Origin: Petroclostridium xylanilyticum
Lineage (GTDB): Bacteria > Bacillota > Clostridia > SK-Y3
Assembly: GCF_002252565.1 (NCBI RefSeq)
Contig: NZ_NPML01000013.1
Span: 1 to 64,000, forward strand
DNA length: 64,000 nt
Reading direction: 5' to 3'
Part shown: positions 32,244 to 58,651 of the stretch, in pieces
Position numbering within the stretch: the first letter of the stretch is position 1
Layout: every line of letters begins with the position of its first letter
The notes under the pieces: generated by a model
What the model was told of the DNA's origin: nothing
Database searches by the model: none
The model's input: the letters and a program-made list of their open reading frames with translations, nothing else
Made by a program: the position numbers and the translations under genes

Positions 32244-32328
32244 AGTTCACGGTTCACAGTTCTCAGTTCACAGAAATTAGCCAAGAAAATACTGTGAACC
32301 GTGAACCGTGAACTGTGAACCGTGAACT
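32244..32328. repeat. Heptad repeat arrays in inverted orientation (hairpin)
   Basis: The left array reads AGTTCAC, GGTTCAC, AGTTCTC, AGTTCAC with exact 7-base spacing (32244-32273). The right array reads GTGAACC, GTGAACC, GTGAACT, GTGAACC, GTGAACT (32294-32328). The arrays are near reverse complements separated by about 20 bases, so the RNA can form a long stem. Confidence 0.85.
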
Positions 32329-44364: not shown

Positions 44365-44389
44365 AACTCCGAGCTCCAAGCTCCGAGCT
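44365..44389. repeat. Heptad repeat array (AGCTCCG unit)
   Basis: AACTCCG, AGCTCCA, AGCTCCG, AGCT in exact 7-base register, just after the stop of the BMC-H gene at 44399. Confidence 0.85.
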
Positions 44390-45585: not shown

Positions 45586-45630
45586 AGCTCGGAGTTAATA
45601 ACTCTCCACTCCTCACTGTTTACTCCCCAC
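45586..45630. repeat. Heptad repeat array overlapping a gene end (CTCCCCA unit)
   Basis: CTCTCCA, CTCCTCA, CTGTTTA, CTCCCCA in register at 45602-45629, preceded by AGCTCGG, AGTTA at 45586. It overlaps the last codons and TGA stop (45613-45615) of the BMC-H gene that ends there. Confidence 0.8.
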
Positions 45631-45957
45631 TTTTCTTAACTTGTCTTTTCCTACATTTGAAATGGTTACGAGCTTTTGTGTTTCATCATCCGGTCGTGCG
45701 ATTACATGATGTGCTATTACACCGGATGCCCTTTTTGCAGCTTCTACTCCTGCAGCTACAGCGGCCTGGACTGCTGAAACACTTCCTTCAAGCTTTACAA
45801 GCATCACCAATGGGACCTCTGCTGCGTCTCCGGCTGCCGGCTTTGTGGAGTCAAGCGCTACAATTCTGACATCTGCTGCTTTCGCAGCTGCATCCGCTGC
45901 TTTAATTGCTGTAACATAGCCGAATACTTCAATAAAACCTATTGCTTGATTCCCCAT
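45613..45957 (-). CDS. BMC-H shell protein with short insertion and C-terminal tail
   Basis: 114 residues. BMC domain MGNQAIGFIEVFGYVTAIKA, with an A/P/G-rich insertion STKPAAGDAAEVPLVMLVKL between strands, then GSVSAVQAAVAAGVEAAKRA and HHVIARPDDETQKLV. The tail ends VGKDKLRKVGSKQ; its last codons and the stop lie in a heptad repeat array, so the original C-terminus may have been longer or different. It is the first shell gene after the dehydrogenase, only 3 bases apart. The inserted segment near the pore would change gating or binding. Confidence 0.9.
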   Translation of the reverse strand: MGNQAIGFIEVFGYVTAIKAADAAAKAADVRIVALDSTKPAAGDAAEVPLVMLVKLEGSVSAVQAAVAAGVEAAKRASGVIAHHVIARPDDETQKLVTISNVGKDKLRKVGSKQ

Positions 45958-47339: not shown

Positions 47340-48782
47340 TCAAATAATCGACAACGAATCAACCAGTACGCATCTTCTTTCTCTTGTAAATGTCTTGGTT
47401 GAGGTGAGGCCTTCACCCGTTGGTCCGGCAATGGTAAACGTAGCATATCCTTCGCTTCCTACACCAATTCCGGCATAGGATGGTGCATTCTTTACAAAGA
47501 TTGTAGTTCCGATTGCTTTTGCAAACTTTGTAAGATTGTCTATATTTTTTGAGTGCATATGTGCTGTATGTCTGTTGCCATGTTCTGCTTTTACTGCTAA
47601 ACGAATAGCTTCATCCACATTATTTACTCTCACGATGGGCAGAATAGGCATCATCAACTCTTCCACCACAAAAGGATGATCTGCACCGGTTTCACAAATG
47701 ATGCAGCGAATATCATCTTCAACATAGATACCCAACTCCTTCAAAATCAACTTTGCATCTTTTCCTACCCATTTTTTATTAATCATTAATTCTCTCTTAG
47801 GCCTATCGGTACATCCCTTACCCTGAAGTTCTTCTTTTTCAGTTAGCACTATTTTTACCAGTTGTTCAATCTCTTCTCCTTTAATAAGGTATGCTCCGTT
47901 TTGCTGCATATAGTAAACCAGTTCATCAGCAATATTTTCTAATGCAAATACCTCTTTTTCTGCAATGCAGGGAAGGTTGTTGTCAAAGGTTGCTCCATCT
48001 ATAATATCTTTAGCTGCTTTCTTAATATCAGCGGTATCATCCACAATTACCGGAGGATTTCCCGCTCCGGCCCCAATGGCTTTCTTACCCGAGGAGAGCA
48101 GGGCACGTACAACCCCCGGACCCCCTGTAGCAACAAGAAGTTTCACAGCTGGGTGTTTCATCATAATATCCGCCGATTGCAGTGTTGGCTTATATACGGA
48201 ACAGACCAGGTTCTTCGGTCCCCCTGCATACATTACTGCTTTATTTACCAAATCTACTGCAAAATTTGATACATTGACTGCATTAGGGTGAGGATTGAAT
48301 ACCACTGCATTTCCCGCTGCAATCATTCCAATACTGTTACAGATTACTGTTTCACTTGGATTGGTACTGGGTGTAATGGCTCCAATCACACCATAGGGTG
48401 CTCTTTCTACCAGGGTTAGCCCCCTGTCCCCCGACCATGCTGTAGTGTTTAAGTCTTCAGTTCCCGGGGTCTTGTTTGCTACCAGTTGGTGTTTTAATAT
48501 CTTATGATCCACCCTTCCCATCCCGGTTTCTTCCACACCCATTTTTGCCATTATTTCTGCATTCTCTAAAGTCAACTTTCTGATTGCAGATATCATTTGC
48601 TCTCTTTGCTCAATAGAATACTCCCTTAAGCTGTTATAAGCTTTTTCTGCTGCTTCAAGCGCATCTTCCATCGATTCAAACACACCTAATAGCTTTTTAT
48701 TTTCTGTTTCTCTTATATTACCAGCTGCTATATTCTTAAGCACCTTTTCTACTATCAGGTTGATTTGTTTTTCATCTATCAT
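47340..48782 (-). CDS. pduP: CoA-acylating propionaldehyde dehydrogenase
   Basis: 480 residues. Oxidises propionaldehyde to propionyl-CoA with NAD+ in the BMC lumen. The N-terminal helix MIDEKQINLIVEKVLKNIAA plus linker is a typical encapsulation peptide. MGVEETGMGRVDHKILKHQL, PYGVIGAITPSTNPSETVIC and GAGNPPVIVDDTADIKKAA are PduP/EutE hallmarks. The catalytic Cys is in FDNNLPCIAEKEV near residue 270. GGGGG precedes the ATG. It overlaps pduO by four bases. Confidence 0.95.
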   Translation of the reverse strand: MIDEKQINLIVEKVLKNIAAGNIRETENKKLLGVFESMEDALEAAEKAYNSLREYSIEQREQMISAIRKLTLENAEIMAKMGVEETGMGRVDHKILKHQLVANKTPGTEDLNTTAWSGDRGLTLVERAPYGVIGAITPSTNPSETVICNSIGMIAAGNAVVFNPHPNAVNVSNFAVDLVNKAVMYAGGPKNLVCSVYKPTLQSADIMMKHPAVKLLVATGGPGVVRALLSSGKKAIGAGAGNPPVIVDDTADIKKAAKDIIDGATFDNNLPCIAEKEVFALENIADELVYYMQQNGAYLIKGEEIEQLVKIVLTEKEELQGKGCTDRPKRELMINKKWVGKDAKLILKELGIYVEDDIRCIICETGADHPFVVEELMMPILPIVRVNNVDEAIRLAVKAEHGNRHTAHMHSKNIDNLTKFAKAIGTTIFVKNAPSYAGIGVGSEGYATFTIAGPTGEGLTSTKTFTRERRCVLVDSLSII

Positions 48783-49798
48783 TGGTTTCGACCCCCTTTT
48801 TCAAATATTTGAGCACCAAATTCAGCAAGCTCTATATCCTGTTCAGCTGTTCCGCCACTTACACCTAACCCACCTACAACTTTATCTGCCTGCTTTAGCG
48901 GAACACCACCACCAAAAATGACAATCCTGCCGCTGTTGGTAAACTGCAATCCATACAAAGGACTTCCCGGCTGTGACAAGTTTCCAACTGTTTCAGTAGA
49001 CATTTTTAATGCTGCCGATGTATAGGCTTTATTAACTGCAATATCAATACTGGCAATAAAGGCGTCATCCATCCTGTGTAGCAGTATTAAATTACCACCT
49101 TCATCGGCAATAGCAATTACAACTTTCATGCCTTTCTCTATCGCCTTTTTCTCAATTTCCAACGATAATTGCTTCGCAGCTTGGAGTGTTAACTTACCAA
49201 AATCACCTTCATTCTTTGCAGCGAAGAGTCCATCATGTTTTAACTCCTCACTCCCCACCGTCCACTCCCCTCTTTCCTTAACAACTTTTTTTACAATCTC
49301 TTTAACTTTCTCCTTAAGTTCTATATATCGCGCCATCACATATATTAAGTCGGAAAGCCTGTTTAAATAGATCAGTCCAAATTCGTTTATTTCTCTTTTT
49401 TCCTTTAACCCGACAGCAATTCTTTCAGCCCGGCGTACAATCGTTCTTGCCATATCCAATGCTGCTGTGGAATGGAACGCTCCTGGAAGTATAAAACCTT
49501 TAAAGCTTCCAACTTGCTGCTGGTATTTATCTATGAGTTTTTCAATAAATTCAATCTTCTCCTGGGTGATAACATATTTCCCACCAACGACCTGTGCATT
49601 AAAGGCTATAATATCTCTTTGAACATATATCAAATCTTTCAGTACATTTTCATCGTCCAAGAATGACCGGGCCAACCCCAGGGCAGAAGTAAATTCATCC
49701 ATTGTACCGATCAAATGGATTGACAGGTCATTTTTTGATACTCTCTTTTTGCTTAAAGTGTCCGTCATTCCTTCATCACCGGTTTTGGTATATATCAT
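48779..49798 (-). CDS. pduO: ATP:cob(I)alamin adenosyltransferase PduO, two-domain
   Basis: 339 residues. Makes adenosylcobalamin for the diol dehydratase. The N-terminal domain (1 to about 175) starts MIYTKTGDEGMTDTLSKKRV and contains FILPGAFHSTAALDMARTIV and RRAERI. The C-terminal domain (about 200-339, HbpS/GlcG-like) has KLTLQAAKQLSLEIEKKAIE and VVGGLGVSGGTAEQDIELAE. The linker around residues 175-190 (RGEWTVGSEELKHDG) is encoded by an in-frame heptad repeat array. The ATG at 49798 sits right after GAGG. A GGAG from the upstream heptad array is better spaced and probably supplies the ribosome site. Confidence 0.94.
   Translation of the reverse strand: MIYTKTGDEGMTDTLSKKRVSKNDLSIHLIGTMDEFTSALGLARSFLDDENVLKDLIYVQRDIIAFNAQVVGGKYVITQEKIEFIEKLIDKYQQQVGSFKGFILPGAFHSTAALDMARTIVRRAERIAVGLKEKREINEFGLIYLNRLSDLIYVMARYIELKEKVKEIVKKVVKERGEWTVGSEELKHDGLFAAKNEGDFGKLTLQAAKQLSLEIEKKAIEKGMKVVIAIADEGGNLILLHRMDDAFIASIDIAVNKAYTSAALKMSTETVGNLSQPGSPLYGLQFTNSGRIVIFGGGVPLKQADKVVGGLGVSGGTAEQDIELAEFGAQIFEKGGRNQ
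49243..49277. repeat. Heptad repeat array inside the pduO coding region
   Basis: ACTCCTC, ACTCCCC, ACCGTCC, ACTCCCC, TCTTTCC in 7-base register. Because 7 is not a multiple of 3, all three frames of the unit are read, giving the linker GEWTVGSEEL between the two PduO domains. The frame is kept. Confidence 0.85.
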
Positions 49799-49804
49799 CC
49801 TCTA

Positions 49805-49839
49805 ATTCTCCATTCTCAATTGTCAATTCTCAATTCCAT
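49805..49839. repeat. Heptad repeat array (ATTCTCA unit)
   Basis: ATTCTCC, ATTCTCA, ATTGTCA, ATTCTCA, ATTCCAT in exact register, filling most of the 44 bases between pduG and pduO. On the minus strand it supplies GGAG, a likely ribosome site for pduO. Confidence 0.85.
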
Positions 49840-49842
49840 GAA

Positions 49843-51666
49843 TTACTCACTTAACACCAAACCAGTAGCAACGGCATTTCTTGGTCCTTCGGTGCCCCGT
49901 ATATTTCCCCTTCCTGCTACAATCCGGTATTGAGACAACTCATTCGAAATCATTTCAGGAATTTCAAAGTCTAATGCTGACCCTCCTACCATTACCACAA
50001 ATCCTATATTTCTGATATTTCCTTCCGGAGCCACTGCCGTTAGTGCTCTTAACGCATTGGTAATAAATACCTTCCTTTTGGCTTCCCGTCTTACGAACTG
50101 AATCTTTTCCATCGTATACTGCTTGCTTGATTTTATTGGAATCAAAAATTCATCGGTTACTACCACTACCCTGGCATACAGTTCAGGGTCCAGCGGTGTC
50201 TCTGAGAATTGAACTGAACCATCTTCAAACCGCAAATGCAGTAAGCTCTCTACTTTCGCTAAAGGAAATTTCTTTATTGATTCAGCCAGTTCTTTATCTT
50301 CTAGTGCCAATTCAGAATTAATAAGCATTGTAACCATGTCTCCGGCTCCGGCCAGGTGAATACTTTTGATACTGCCGTTACCACCAATAAGGGCTGCATC
50401 AGTAGAACCTCCCCCCATATCCAGTACGGCCAACGGCTTTTCTGTTCCCGGCGTCGTTAATGCTCCCAGTAATGCCATATTTGCTTCCGCACCGGCTATT
50501 TTTACATACACCCCTGTCCTTTTGCTGAGTTCCCGGGCTATGCTCTCCATTGGCAGCCTGTTAGTCCTTACCATTGCAGCCAAAAGAACTGCATTTTCCA
50601 GCGCATATTCCCCGGCCAGCCCCCCCGCTACCTTCACCGGTATAAAGGTATCTACCGCCAATATATCCCTGATATTCAGGTCTTCAATAGGCTGCCGGGT
50701 AAGCTGTGCCATTATTCCTTTGACCCTGGCCATCATACCTCCAACATTTGTACCCGCTTCTCCTGCGATATCTTCTACATTTCCTACACTGCTAAGTGCC
50801 GCCATAATTTTGTGGGCGCCATCCATGACATCTATCCGGCTTGAAGCCCGGTCACCCCTTATGGTAAGTTTCCCGGCAGGTATTTTTCTATTTTTCACAT
50901 CTCCTCCCGGTGTCTTGATAACTACTGCCGAACGGTTTCCTATCAAACTACGGGATATTGGAATTATATTTTTTGTTTCTGCCGGCGACAGATTAAATAT
51001 AGATGCCAGACCATAGGGGTTGGGCAGTACCTTTATAGTTTCTCCATTGCCTGCTACTTCCACTGCTGCAAGTTTTTCAAGAGGTACCTTGTGTATTAAT
51101 GTTACTTCATCCACAATGGGAATTTTAGCAATAAGCCGGTTCGAAATTAGTACTGCATCGTCTTTTTGCACAATTGCTCCTCTTACATATATTCCTTGTT
51201 GTACTGCCTGGTTAATGATTCTGGCAGCATCTTCATAGTCCCAGTCTTCAGGGATTACTACAATCAGCTCTTCACCCTTCTTGCTTGATAGAAGCTTGCT
51301 AATTTCTCGGGTAATACCGGTTGCTATACCTCTTCCACCTGGCGTTGAAGGGTTATGTCCGATCATTGAAGACTCTACAATTACTGTCTCTGAAATTGTT
51401 TCCATTGCTGTTTCACTTATTACAGGGGTAGCCTCATTAATCTTGATCACAGCCAGGTCCTGTATCCTTATTCCTGCTTTTTGTACCGCTTCTTCCAATG
51501 CAGTGATGATACCGCTGATATTATCCAGCGTACCTTTTATTCCTGTTGTCTTGGTTAATCCTGTGGATAAAAACTTTAAAGTCCCTATATCGTCCTTGGC
51601 TGCAATACAAACTTCGGTAGTAGAGTTCCCTATATCAACGCCGGCAATTAACTTAAACAATTTCAA
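49843..51666 (-). CDS. pduG: Diol dehydratase reactivase large subunit
   Basis: 607 residues (DdrA). An ATP-dependent chaperone-like factor that releases damaged cobalamin from the dehydratase. KLIAGVDIGNSTTEVCIAAK is the actin/Hsp70-like phosphate loop, PLAVLDMGGGSTDAALIGGN the second, and GFVVMVGGSALDFEIPEMIS the third. VAGRGNIRGTEGPRNAVATG ends the protein. The start codon is TTG (51666), close behind GAGG; a second TTG two codons later is also possible. Normally it pairs with a small subunit (PduH/DdrB), but no such gene follows: only 44 bases separate it from pduO. Confidence 0.94.
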   Translation of the reverse strand: MKLFKLIAGVDIGNSTTEVCIAAKDDIGTLKFLSTGLTKTTGIKGTLDNISGIITALEEAVQKAGIRIQDLAVIKINEATPVISETAMETISETVIVESSMIGHNPSTPGGRGIATGITREISKLLSSKKGEELIVVIPEDWDYEDAARIINQAVQQGIYVRGAIVQKDDAVLISNRLIAKIPIVDEVTLIHKVPLEKLAAVEVAGNGETIKVLPNPYGLASIFNLSPAETKNIIPISRSLIGNRSAVVIKTPGGDVKNRKIPAGKLTIRGDRASSRIDVMDGAHKIMAALSSVGNVEDIAGEAGTNVGGMMARVKGIMAQLTRQPIEDLNIRDILAVDTFIPVKVAGGLAGEYALENAVLLAAMVRTNRLPMESIARELSKRTGVYVKIAGAEANMALLGALTTPGTEKPLAVLDMGGGSTDAALIGGNGSIKSIHLAGAGDMVTMLINSELALEDKELAESIKKFPLAKVESLLHLRFEDGSVQFSETPLDPELYARVVVVTDEFLIPIKSSKQYTMEKIQFVRREAKRKVFITNALRALTAVAPEGNIRNIGFVVMVGGSALDFEIPEMISNELSQYRIVAGRGNIRGTEGPRNAVATGLVLSE

Positions 51667-51690: not shown

Positions 51691-52206
51691 CTATCTTAGT
51701 ATCTTTCTTGTTTCATATACTTCCGCTGCTTCCCTGATTAGTTTCGCCGTGATTTTGGCCTGATATTTGGTTTCCAGCTCCTGTGCAGCATCCAGTAACT
51801 GCTGTTTTGTGGCTCTTCTGGGTCTTAAGAGTTCATATATTTCCAGTACTTTTTCATCTGGAATTCTTGTTAATTCAGCAGCCCTTCTTAAATTATGGGC
51901 AAACTGCTTTTTACCATTTGCCTCTGCTACCTGTGCCTGCAGCTCCAATACTTCAGCACTGATTCGAATATCCTCCGGCTTCACTTCTTCATCTACTACT
52001 TTTTCCAGCGTTATATCATTCAACGTTTTCCCCGTATAACTCTTAATCAATTCCGGCCTTTTCTGTGCCAGCGGATAATCACTTAGCGTTAGCTTAGAAG
52101 TGTTATTTGCAGAGTTCAGAGATTTTACTCCCCACTCCTCACTCCCCACTCCTAACTGTGTTTCCGCTATCCTCTTTACCAGCTGCTCTATTCTATTCTC
52201 TTCCAT
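51691..52206 (-). CDS. pduE: Propanediol dehydratase small subunit
   Basis: 171 residues. The gamma subunit of the B12 diol dehydratase. The N-terminal helix MEENRIEQLVKRIAETQL is encapsulation-peptide-like. The body starts DYPLAQKRPELIKSYTGKTL and continues with DITLEKVVDEEVKPEDIRIS and ANGKKQFAHNLRRAAELTRI. Residues about 17-28 (LGVGSEEWGVKS) are encoded by an in-frame heptad array between helix and body. The ATG immediately follows the pduD stop codon, so the genes are coupled. Confidence 0.95.
   Translation of the reverse strand: MEENRIEQLVKRIAETQLGVGSEEWGVKSLNSANNTSKLTLSDYPLAQKRPELIKSYTGKTLNDITLEKVVDEEVKPEDIRISAEVLELQAQVAEANGKKQFAHNLRRAAELTRIPDEKVLEIYELLRPRRATKQQLLDAAQELETKYQAKITAKLIREAAEVYETRKILR
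52127..52158. repeat. Heptad repeat array inside the pduE coding region
   Basis: ACTCCCC, ACTCCTC, ACTCCCC, ACTCCTA, ACTG in exact register. It encodes VGSEEWGVK in the linker between the N-terminal helix and the catalytic-body part. Unit sequence nearly identical to that in pduO. Confidence 0.85.
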
Positions 52207-52884
52207 CTACACCACCTGCTTTCCAAAAGAAACCTCTAACGCTACAGGTTTTGCATCATCTTTAACCTTTTCAGTTTCTTTTATATGAAGTAAAGCGGCC
52301 TTTGCCTGGAATTTAGGTCTTACCATGCAGTCATTCTGGACAGTAATTGGTGTTGGCGATAATCCCTTGGCATATCTGGCAGCATTTTTTCCTATTTTTC
52401 TATATATTTCCTTAGTAATCAATGGTGCCTGTGGAAACAACTCCAGGTTTGTAAGGGGAAATAAGTCTTTCTGGTGGATTACAGCAGTGCCTTTGGATTG
52501 CAACCCTATTCCTATTCCGGACCCGCTGAGTTTTGCCGCTGTTAACGCAATAAACGACACATCGGAAGTATTATAGACTTTTACAAATCTGTACCTTAGT
52601 CCTTCTTCTTCAATCCCGGCAGCAATTTCTCTCAATACATCATAATGAGATAGTCCATTGATGGTTTCAGTCTGTGATTCTCCAAAAGCGGGAGCAACTC
52701 CTATCACCACTTCGTCATTGTATAATCCAACAGCTGCTTCCCCTGTTTCTCTAATAAATAGCTTCTGCTCATTGCTATCAGCTTTAACGCTGGTTGTATT
52801 ATCTATATTAAAGTTTTGACTTTGTTTTAACCGTTCTAATACTTTAGCAGTAATAAGTTTGACAAGTTGTTCATTGTATTCCAT
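52207..52884 (-). CDS. pduD: Propanediol dehydratase medium subunit
   Basis: 225 residues. The beta subunit, contributing to adenosylcobalamin binding. The N-terminal helix MEYNEQLVKLITAKVLERLK plus a linker is the encapsulation peptide known to target the whole dehydratase to the lumen in Salmonella. The body shows VVIGVAPAFGESQTETINGL, DVSFIALTAAKLSGSGIGIG, LQSKGTAVIHQKDLFPLTNL and ELFPQAPLITKEIYRKIGKN. AAGGGTG precedes the ATG. It lies 90 bases after pduC, with a heptad array in the gap. Confidence 0.96.
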   Translation of the reverse strand: MEYNEQLVKLITAKVLERLKQSQNFNIDNTTSVKADSNEQKLFIRETGEAAVGLYNDEVVIGVAPAFGESQTETINGLSHYDVLREIAAGIEEEGLRYRFVKVYNTSDVSFIALTAAKLSGSGIGIGLQSKGTAVIHQKDLFPLTNLELFPQAPLITKEIYRKIGKNAARYAKGLSPTPITVQNDCMVRPKFQAKAALLHIKETEKVKDDAKPVALEVSFGKQVV

Positions 52885-52903: not shown

Positions 52904-52975
52904 AGCTAGGAGTTCGGATCTTGGAGTAATCCACGGCTTTGGATTTTCATTTCTCCGGGCTCCAGGCTGCAAATC
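52904..52975. repeat. Heptad repeat array (AGTTCGG unit) between pduC and pduD
   Basis: AGCTAGG, AGTTCGG, ATCTTGG, AGTAATC at 52904-52931, and in the opposite sense TTTCTCC, GGGCTCC, AGGCTGC at 52950-52970. The two can pair partly. It ends at the pduC stop codon. Confidence 0.75.
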
Positions 52976-54638
52976 ATATCTTCTCCGGATCAATCGCCAT
53001 ACTTATATTTTTAATCTCTTCCCAGCGTTTGCCGTCTACCCTATACCCTGTACCCGGGCCCATATAATCGTTAGGTGCATTGACAGCACTTATTACATTG
53101 AATTGGTCATCTAGTATCGAGGAGGTCTGGAGGTAGTCTCCCGATATTCTCTGCTTCAACATATTCAGTACAGCACTGGCCAAATCTTCAAATCCACTGT
53201 TATATAAGGCTTTTACAACATCCAAACCTGTTAGCTCTCCGTCAAGCAACTTTTGTGCTGCTCTCAAATCTTCTGTTATATTTCTATCCGGCATGTCCTT
53301 GCTGCCGTGAGCATACGTAGCAGCTTCTACCTCTTCATCAGTAATGGGAGGGAATCCAAGTTCTCTGAATACAGCCTGCAAAGCCCGTGCCGCTTTGTTT
53401 CTCGCCTGAACTACAGCATGCTCTGTTACCGGCTTTAAGCCTCCGTCAATCTTTAAATCCCGTTGAAGCACATTGTAATCATCAAAGTCTTCTGCATCAA
53501 AGTTTGATCCGGCAAACATATTATCGTAGTTAGGTGTTGCGCTATATCCTGAAAATATAAAGTCTGTTCCAGGAAGCATTTGCATTAGCATTCTCGCAGT
53601 CCTTCTGATATCTGAATGGGAGAAGGTCTGGTCATTTCCCGATGCAACCTCTAGTCCAAGCATGGCAGCAATAAGGTTCTCCGCCAGAACTGCCCTAATT
53701 CCGGAAGGCACAGCCCCCGCGATACCTATACAGCTGATAGCACCGTTCTGGGTTCCCTGGACACCGGCACCTTTAATAACTAGAAGGCAACGCGCTTCCA
53801 GGTAGAGCATGGATTTTCCTTCTGCATTTCCCATCAATACTTCTGATCCTGTGCCTGAGGTGCATCGCATTTTCATGCCTCTCGAAGCATAAGCTGATGC
53901 CAAAAATGCCTTTGAATAGGGTGTATCATCACCATCTATAAAAACTCTTTCAGTTCCATATACTGAAATGGTTTCAGCATAACAGGTAAGTCCCTTCATA
54001 CCCATTTTCAACTCAACTGCTTCTTCTACTGCACACTGGGTAAGAATCCCCCGTCTGCCCGATTGGGATCCGATAAGCAGCGCTAAAGCATTTAAAGGGG
54101 CGTATCTGGCTATTCCCACCGTGGTTTCTTCTTCATCAAACCCTCTTACAGCAGCTTCAGCTGCATCTGCAGCAATCTGAACCGGATGGTCTTTTAAATT
54201 TGTAACATGGCACTGGTTGGAAGGAATCTTTCTTTCCCTCATTTTCTGCATTGCCATCATCATCTCAACTACATTCAGGTACTTCATGATTTCCACCAGC
54301 TTGGCCGGGGTGAAACCATTTGCCAGCCGCGCAATATCCTTTTTACTGGTATTAATATCCACCAGCATTCTCGCTACTTTTAGTGAATCGGTATTCATTG
54401 CTTCCTGTGCAATTTCTATATCAATAGCATAATCAGCAATAAATCTATCTATAAAATCAAATTCATTTCTTGGTTTTCCGTCCATCTCTACAATAATTCC
54501 GTTTTGAATTTTAATAGAAGGCCGTGGGTCCGAATCACTCTCCATAGCGATAAAACCAACCTTAGGCCATTCCTTTACAAAACCGTCATTATGCACGGGA
54601 CGTTGACTAAGCACTTGGAATCTTTTGGATTTATGCAT
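52974..54638 (-). CDS. pduC: Propanediol dehydratase large subunit
   Basis: 554 residues, matching the family length. Catalytic alpha subunit that turns 1,2-propanediol into propionaldehyde with adenosylcobalamin and K+ or Ca2+. RFQVLSQRPVHNDGFVKEWP is the conserved start; VEMMMAMQKMRERKIPSNQC, GLTCYAETISVYGTERVFID, GTGSEVLMGNAEGKSMLYLE, GSKDMPDRNITEDLRAAQKL and GPGTGYRVDGKRWEEI follow. Presence of this enzyme rather than a glycyl-radical dehydratase makes the BMC B12-dependent. It is second in the operon after the aldolase, 17 bases apart. Confidence 0.97.
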   Translation of the reverse strand: MHKSKRFQVLSQRPVHNDGFVKEWPKVGFIAMESDSDPRPSIKIQNGIIVEMDGKPRNEFDFIDRFIADYAIDIEIAQEAMNTDSLKVARMLVDINTSKKDIARLANGFTPAKLVEIMKYLNVVEMMMAMQKMRERKIPSNQCHVTNLKDHPVQIAADAAEAAVRGFDEEETTVGIARYAPLNALALLIGSQSGRRGILTQCAVEEAVELKMGMKGLTCYAETISVYGTERVFIDGDDTPYSKAFLASAYASRGMKMRCTSGTGSEVLMGNAEGKSMLYLEARCLLVIKGAGVQGTQNGAISCIGIAGAVPSGIRAVLAENLIAAMLGLEVASGNDQTFSHSDIRRTARMLMQMLPGTDFIFSGYSATPNYDNMFAGSNFDAEDFDDYNVLQRDLKIDGGLKPVTEHAVVQARNKAARALQAVFRELGFPPITDEEVEAATYAHGSKDMPDRNITEDLRAAQKLLDGELTGLDVVKALYNSGFEDLASAVLNMLKQRISGDYLQTSSILDDQFNVISAVNAPNDYMGPGTGYRVDGKRWEEIKNISMAIDPEKI

Positions 54639-57322: not shown

Positions 57323-58594
57323 TTATTCTCTTTTACTTAATACCTCTTTTTCATACTGTTTCACTTCATCTAACCATGCTTCCTTCACAGGAACATTTTG
57401 CTTCAAACAATAATAATCCCAGATTGCTCCAAAAGGATAGGATTTGAATTCTTCCAATAATGCAAGTCTTGATGTAAAGTCCCCTTCCAACTCATACTGT
57501 TTTAGCTTTTCAACAGGTTCCAGCATGGCTTTTAAAAGTGCTTTAATTGCATTTCTTGTACCTATCACCCATGCTGCAATTCGGTTGATGCTTGCATCAA
57601 AAAAGTCCAGTGCAATATGGGTCCTATTTAAGAAATCACCTCTTACAATTTCCTGCATAATAGCCTGTAACTCGTCGTCAAAAATGACAACATGGTCACT
57701 GTCCCATCTTACCGGCCTGCTTACATGCAGGAGTATTTCATCTAAAAAGTTCATCATTGCGGAAATCTTATTAGAAATCACTTCCGTTGGATGGAAATGT
57801 CCTGCATCCAGACAAAGTAAAGTATTATTTTTTACCGCATAGCCCATGTAGAATTCATGAGAACCTACTACATAGCTTTCTGAACCAATACCAAATAATT
57901 TACTTTCAACTGCATCAAGGTTGTATTCCGGAGAAATCTTCTCTTGAAGTATTTCATCCAATGCCTCTTTTAGTCTTTGCCTTGGGCCAAAACGGTCCAC
58001 AGGAATATCTTTATATCCGTCAGGAATCCAGATATTTGTTACACAGGGTGTCCCAAGTTCTTTTCCAAAATATTCTCCAATCTTTCTGCATGCTTTGCCA
58101 TGCTCAATCCAGAATTTTTGAATCTCTTTATTTGAATGGCTTAATGTAAACCCGTCATCACTGAGTGGGTGAGAAAAGAATGTTGGGTTAAAATCCAATC
58201 CCAATCCCTGTGCTTTTGCCCATTCTACCCAATTTTTAAAATGCTTTGGCTGCAACTCGTTTCGTTCTACCTTTTCTCCATCGGTCTCTGCATAAATGGC
58301 GTGTAAATTGAGACGATGTTTACCCGGAATTAGAGAAAGCGCTTTTTCAATGTCCGCTCTCAATTCCTGCGGTGTCTTTGCTTTACCGGGATAATTACCG
58401 GTTACCTGAATACCCCCCGTCAAGTCTTCGGAAACACGTTCAAAACCAGCCACATCATCCCCCTGCCAGCAATGCAGAGAAATCGAAACCCTTTCCAATT
58501 TTTCCAATATTTCATCGGTATCAATTCCCCATTCCGCATAGGCTTCCTTGGCTCTCAGATAGTTTTCTTCAATTCTTTTTTGTACTTCACTCAT
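57323..58594 (-). CDS. rhaA: L-rhamnose isomerase
   Basis: About 423 residues. Converts L-rhamnose to L-rhamnulose using Mn2+/Zn2+. [100 protein letters not shown] and [20 protein letters not shown] are RhaA hallmarks and include the metal-binding His/Asp/Glu residues. AAGGGG seven bases before the ATG at 58594 excludes the longer frame, which would begin in a heptad array. It is the last gene of the operon LacI - kinase - ASRT - rhaA. Confidence 0.96.
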
Positions 58595-58626
58595 ACTGTT
58601 TCCCCTTTCATTATGTTTCAACTCGA

Positions 58627-58651
58627 AGCTTGGAGTTCGGAGCTCGGAGTA
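58627..58651. repeat. Heptad repeat array (AGCTCGG unit)
   Basis: AGCTTGG, AGTTCGG, AGCTCGG, AGTA in exact register, between the ASRT gene and rhaA. Confidence 0.85.

Follow-up and report, generated by a model that had tools for sequence, protein, structure and literature searches.

The DNA analysed here (the window) comprises bases 1-64000 of contig C13 of genome G000 (3.86 Mb, 41 contigs), and its minus strand carries a propanediol-utilisation operon. The genes pduC (52974-54638), pduD (52207-52884) and pduE (51691-52206) adjoin one another on this strand and were assigned with Pfam. The 171-residue product of pduE contains a Dehydratase_SU domain (Pfam, E 1.7e-57, residues 40-171), which together with its two neighbours identifies it as the small subunit of diol dehydratase. 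The same strand also carries pduO (48779-49798), coding for a 339-residue protein with an adenosyltransferase and an HbpS-like domain (Pfam domains at residues 2-159 and 203-329), as well as genes that we take to be pduG-like (49843-51666) and pduP-like (47340-48782). Several small genes of this operon presumably encode shell proteins.

Within pduE, a 31-bp heptad array is present at 52127-52157 on the minus strand. On the plus strand it has the form (ACTNNNN)4ACT, the successive units being ACTCCCC, ACTCCTC, ACTCCCC and ACTCCTA with a terminal ACT. Tandem Repeats Finder (TRF) reports it both as 52127-52152 with period 7 (score 45) and as 52127-52157 with period 14 (score 55). The array codes for PduE residues 17-27, its translation reading LGVGSEEWGV. 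In the predicted structure of PduE (from a 31-sequence alignment, mean pLDDT 81.2), a helix spans residues 2-19, residues 17-35 have pLDDT values below 50, and confidence is high from about residue 40 onward, so that the array is placed between the predicted helix and the start of the Dehydratase_SU domain. TRF, ORF translation, Pfam and the predicted structure hence all agree with the initial annotation, which had located the array within the pduE coding DNA, after an N-terminal helix and before the catalytic body. Neither terminal inverted repeats nor a target duplication could be seen by eye around 52127-52157, and the array does not qualify as a MITE on this ground. An Rfam search of the window gave zero matches.

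The window contains further arrays of this kind. A related array had been proposed for PduO, and it is indeed found at 49238-49270 (minus strand), where sequence and frames give GEWTVGSEEL, located in the region that separates the adenosyltransferase domain from the HbpS-like one. The pduG-pduO junction is largely filled by an AATTCTC-type array (49804-49836, minus strand, TRF score 52), which is not present in the pduG-pduO junction of L041, a 'Eubacterium sp.' locus with the same gene order C-D-E-G-O-P and a pduC that is 83% identical. An ACTCCCC-type array (45601-45631, minus strand) lies over the 3' end of the ORF 45613-45957 and supplies its last residues VGSKQ and the stop codon, and a CTCCGAG-type array (44367-44389, minus strand, TRF score 39) lies upstream of a pduL-like gene. 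A CTCGGAG-type array detected by TRF (58622-58650) adjoins the start of the ORF 57323-58621, whose product we presume to be similar to rhamnose isomerase. Two inverted GTTCAC-type arrays stand 20 bp apart at 32245-32327, with a near-identical pair at C13:214561-214629. Such inverted pairs recur in this genome and would form hairpins.

The repeat is common to the whole genome. Exact copies of its core 12-mer ACTCCCCACTCC number 42 in the 3.86 Mb, and the reversed control has none. In a census of two 400-kb stretches (array score of at least 12), period-7 arrays were found 55 times in 0.8 Mb, compared with 0-11 for each of the remaining periods between 4 and 18 and none in a first-order Markov copy. 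This strong over-representation of period 7 over the other periods marks the arrays as heptameric repeats of the intergenic kind. Their unit families include GTTCACG/GTTCACA (25 arrays), AATTCTC (5), ACCCACT (4), ACTCCCC (3) and others. The genome being a draft of 41 contigs might speak for chance or an assembly artefact, but the contrast with the controls in both counts, together with the occurrence of related arrays in G003, a single-contig genome of the same bacterial family, makes this explanation negligible.

The distribution of the arrays relative to genes is very uneven. At a score of at least 10, the 0.8 Mb contain 66 intergenic arrays, 20 arrays at gene edges and two interior ones (within a gene by more than 60 bp). 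Gene interior makes up 611,205 of the 800,000 bases, and the density of arrays per kilobase is about 200-fold higher in intergenic DNA than in gene interiors; the arrays are dispersed and biased to non-coding DNA. The genes were called with a custom ORF and hexamer script that gives approximate starts, and the PduE array, being 54 bp from its gene start, was scored as gene edge. Similarly, the 36 distinct contexts of the 12-mer that were classified comprise 27 intergenic, 5 edge and 4 interior cases, the last being PduE twice, a PMT-like gene and a gene for a Wzy_C-domain membrane protein (Pfam). In several cases an array lies on a gene end and provides the final residues and the stop codon. 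The genic arrays, in PduE, PduO, a HAD-family protein, PyrD, the PMT-like protein and the Wzy_C protein, are all found in linkers, loops or protein ends. The earlier view of a genome-wide repeat that enters coding linkers of more than one operon gene and is filtered for survival therefore stands, except for the PduE case as an insertion (see below), and the phenomenon is wider than first described, since it extends to unrelated genes outside the operon and to other genera of the bacterial family.

How a 7-bp unit can be read as protein is clear from its length. Since 7 is coprime to 3, a pure GGGGAGT repeat encodes one cyclic heptapeptide, GEWGVGS, in each of its three frames; the opposite strand gives TPHSPLP, with zero stops. 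That the PduE and PduO copies are read in the same phase, as had been emphasised in the initial annotation, is thus uninformative, since the pure unit yields the same peptide whichever frame is used. The actual arrays have mutated units, and one of the three forward frames of the PduE array is open. Consensus units free of stop codons on both strands occur in 8 of the 55 arrays of the census. All three coding arrays of the census (PduE, the HAD gene and PyrD) fall among these eight, an outcome reached by chance in 56 of 26,235 draws; an array counted as coding here if coding sequence flanked it on both sides or if it lay at an N-terminus that had been verified, and arrays that merely touch a gene end were excluded. 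A length coprime to 3, with one peptide in all frames, is thus a route by which a non-triplet tandem repeat can enter a protein, and the units found within genes are those that are stop-free on both strands. The regular expression used for the arrays fixes the ACT phase by construction, and no claim on phase is drawn from it.

No lengthening of the PduE linker by the array was found, contrary to what had been expected. The stretch separating the helix motif and the conserved YPL was 35 residues long in the window PduE and had a median of 33 (range 25-54) in 65 of 80 homologues, the 15 without a recognised helix motif being left out. In the best PDB match, 1dio_G, residue 33 aligns to residue 32 of the window PduE, and the N-terminal part is therefore of similar length. 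A simple array insertion is unlikely in PduE: the array length, 28 or 31 bp, is no multiple of three and would by itself shift the frame. As no close relative with an empty pduE site was found either, the simple in-frame insertion proposed earlier could not be confirmed. Heptad arrays are missing from the corresponding places of L041, whose PduO has 329 residues compared with 339 in the window, and the PduE of G001 is without the N-terminal helix entirely. An ordinary linker length, as well as the lack of a visible empty site or target duplication, would suit a local birth, in which native linker codons of PduE were expanded by polymerase slippage with no DNA from elsewhere; slippage in steps of 7 bp is indeed visible between copies of an interspersed element (see below). 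We nevertheless regard a local origin as unlikely, since the PduE unit is common to dozens of other sites, including the coding array in PduO, which independent slippage would not produce.

The similarity of VGSEEWGV in PduE to GEWTVGSEE in PduO, both in one operon, could also suggest a peptide selected as a microcompartment linker or interaction motif. Yet VGSEE, EEWG, GSEE and GVGS were found in none of the 80 PduE homologues, and the 0.93 Mb of DNA from the 80 PduE loci of other organisms contain no period-7 array of score 12 or above; a peptide conserved in PduE of repeat-free species, which would have spoken against an origin from the repeat, was accordingly not encountered. Peptides of this type also occur in unrelated proteins and C-terminal tails, the unit yields the peptide in any frame, and the segment is predicted to be disordered. 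A selected function is therefore very improbable, and we have rejected it on the absence of the peptide from 80 of 80 homologues.

The N-terminal helix itself had been likened to an encapsulation peptide. In PMC12108088, the N-terminal extension of Salmonella PduE is described as needed for activity and as being no targeting signal, and residues 1-16 of this PduE failed to target GFP. By analogy with this counterpart, a targeting role for the helix in the window would not be supported. PMC12339742 describes encapsulation peptides as being joined to their cargo through poorly conserved, disordered linkers, and a tolerated change in the PduE linker fits both of these descriptions.

A composite interspersed repeat is also present in this genome (for example at L004, L008, L011 and L025), with GGGGACGGTTC...GAACCGTCCCC palindromes and a CACGCCGGGC hairpin. 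It has 54 matches to a 123-base consensus and often terminates in ACTCCCC heptads, its copies carrying arrays of 17, 24, 31 or 45 bp between constant flanks, that is, arrays differing in 7-bp length steps. In the PMT-like mannosyltransferase gene (C13:303197-305797, Pfam), a segment derived from this element, TPHSPLFTPHYFH, is read as protein; the stretch was identified by matching it to element copies that lie between genes of this genome. Such an element, about 120 bp long and ending in GGTTTT-(ACTNNNN)n-ACT-ATTTTCAT, might have been inserted into pduE and then mostly deleted, leaving the array as a remnant. The TTTT directly before the PduE array, the identical array length of 31 bp, and the PMT-like gene, in which the matches to the element extend on both sides of the array, all agree with this possibility, but no further element sequence remains in pduE and many arrays stand alone, so that we consider it no likelier than local slippage.

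The comparison of orthologous sites gives the strongest result of this analysis. In the HAD-family gene at C13:169316-170428 (L267), one loop contains GGAGTTC-type heptads. The same loop contains four AATGGAC units in G003 (L268) and AATGGTC-type heptads in G004 (L269), and heptads are missing there in G002, G005 and 15 more distant orthologues (17 of the 20 aligned). At the infB-rbfA junction, G000 carries GAATTGA-type heptads and G003 GTTCACA-type heptads, and the other four genomes carry none. Among the six genomes, the in-frame array at the N-terminus of PyrD is found in G000 only, as are the inverted AATTCTC arrays at the ecfA junction. At the end of rpsD, an array in G000 corresponds to a degenerate similar stretch in G001. 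Between these two genomes, one common array differs by exactly 7 bp (48 and 41 bp between matches), and one junction has different heptads. Arrays thus change by whole units, and orthologous sites gain, lose or switch arrays, a given site having an array, none, or one of another unit. In the Wzy_C protein, the loop length is kept in three of four aligned relatives, and a similar peptide, SGKW, is present at this place in G003; the heptad of this gene may therefore be of old age or in part a coincidence. For the PMT-like gene, the bacterial family offers no usable orthologue.

In a class-wide sample of 391 genomes, the pattern GGGGAGTGNGGAGTGNGGAGT was found in two, G000 (7 sites) and G003 (9 sites), both of one bacterial family. 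Period-7 arrays of score 12 or above number 12 in 200 kb of G003 and two in 66 kb of G001, with none in 71 kb of G002, 20 kb of G004, 15 kb of G006, 49 kb of G007 and 60 kb of G009. One contig of G001 (C11, L327) is 99.6-100% identical to C13:155-158 kb of G000, compared with about 80% elsewhere, and is misbinned or recently transferred.

Taken together, these data indicate that the PduE array is probably one copy of the genome-wide degenerate 7-bp repeats, lying in a disordered linker and persisting there as a tolerated passenger. Most likely it is a neutral passenger filtered by purifying selection, its peptide presumably having no selected function. Degenerate heptads of this bacterial family, residing mostly in intergenic gaps, would have spread by copying or insertion followed by slippage of units, and one copy would have reached the PduE linker, its arrival accompanied by loss or change of the native linker. 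It could then persist by virtue of a unit that is stop-free on both strands, an open frame and a linker unconstrained in sequence.

Heptad repeats are an old, unexplained trait of some bacterial genomes. The Beggiatoaceae TAACTGA arrays (PMC4679880) are likewise built of a 7-bp unit and form many dispersed, mostly intergenic arrays, some of which extend over stop codons or are located inside ORFs, chiefly at protein ends; they have one unit sequence, whereas here several degenerate unit families occur and one orthologous site can have different units across genera. Those of Xanthomonas and Nostoc (PMC4692102), GGGAATC and GGGGA(C/T)T, share with ours a G-rich 7-bp unit, dispersion, a non-coding bias with under-representation in ORFs, and extensive variation in length among related genomes. 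The unit here is GGGGAGT, however, and the G-rich strand of the PduE array has two G-tracts of at least three and not the four or more that a quadruplex needs. Like the Rickettsia palindromic elements (PMC10969869), the heptads are repeat DNA read in frame within host genes, but those elements are palindromes of about 150 bp with an ORF of their own, and the 31-bp tandem array of PduE, which has no palindrome, is not of that type. The tandem repeats of Borgs (PMC9879509) similarly create disordered segments in genes; their in-ORF units are all divisible by three, unlike the 7-bp unit found by TRF in PduE. The BrickBuilt minisatellite MITE of Porphyromonas gingivalis (PMC4596501) is, like the array of the ACTCCCC-ended element above, a tandem repeat within an interspersed element, but differs in its 23-bp unit and in being always intergenic. 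A survey of prokaryote satellites (PMC6749651) mentions heptamer-derived families. The arrays described here represent a variant of the heptamer type in which one genome has several kinds of unit and one orthologous loop has different units. In the literature as covered by title and abstract, which leaves out most subscription journals, we recognised no report of heptads in this bacterial family, which offers a natural experiment in that heptads are present, absent or different at one orthologous junction or loop.

The heptad units also show signs of a common register. When compared without the G001 contig C11, which remains within that genome's count of 7 arrays, the 14 distinct consensus heptads have 3.78 bits, compared with 3.30 ± 0.19 after shuffling, a value that 1 of 150 shuffles reached; with so few units, possibly of common ancestry, this is suggestive only. 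A bolder and rather doubtful proposal is that a family-specific process keeps writing (AYT-NNNN)n arrays at permissive junctions and loops, overwriting older ones, with the A-Y-T register anchoring a telomerase-like, repeat-copying polymerase and PduE being one site that is read as protein. Such rewriting, if true, would be the reason why heptads at orthologous sites differ between genera. As to candidate polymerases, PF00078 matches number 14 in G000, 9 in G003, two in G001, one in G005 and none in G002 or G004, and those proteins that could be read seemed to resemble group II intron maturases. We claim no link between the heptads and a telomerase-like or defence reverse transcriptase, because G004 carries heptads in its HAD gene with zero reverse transcriptase matches. 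Intron-type reverse transcriptases are present in several near-identical copies on contigs C3, C11, C19, C27 and C29 of G000.
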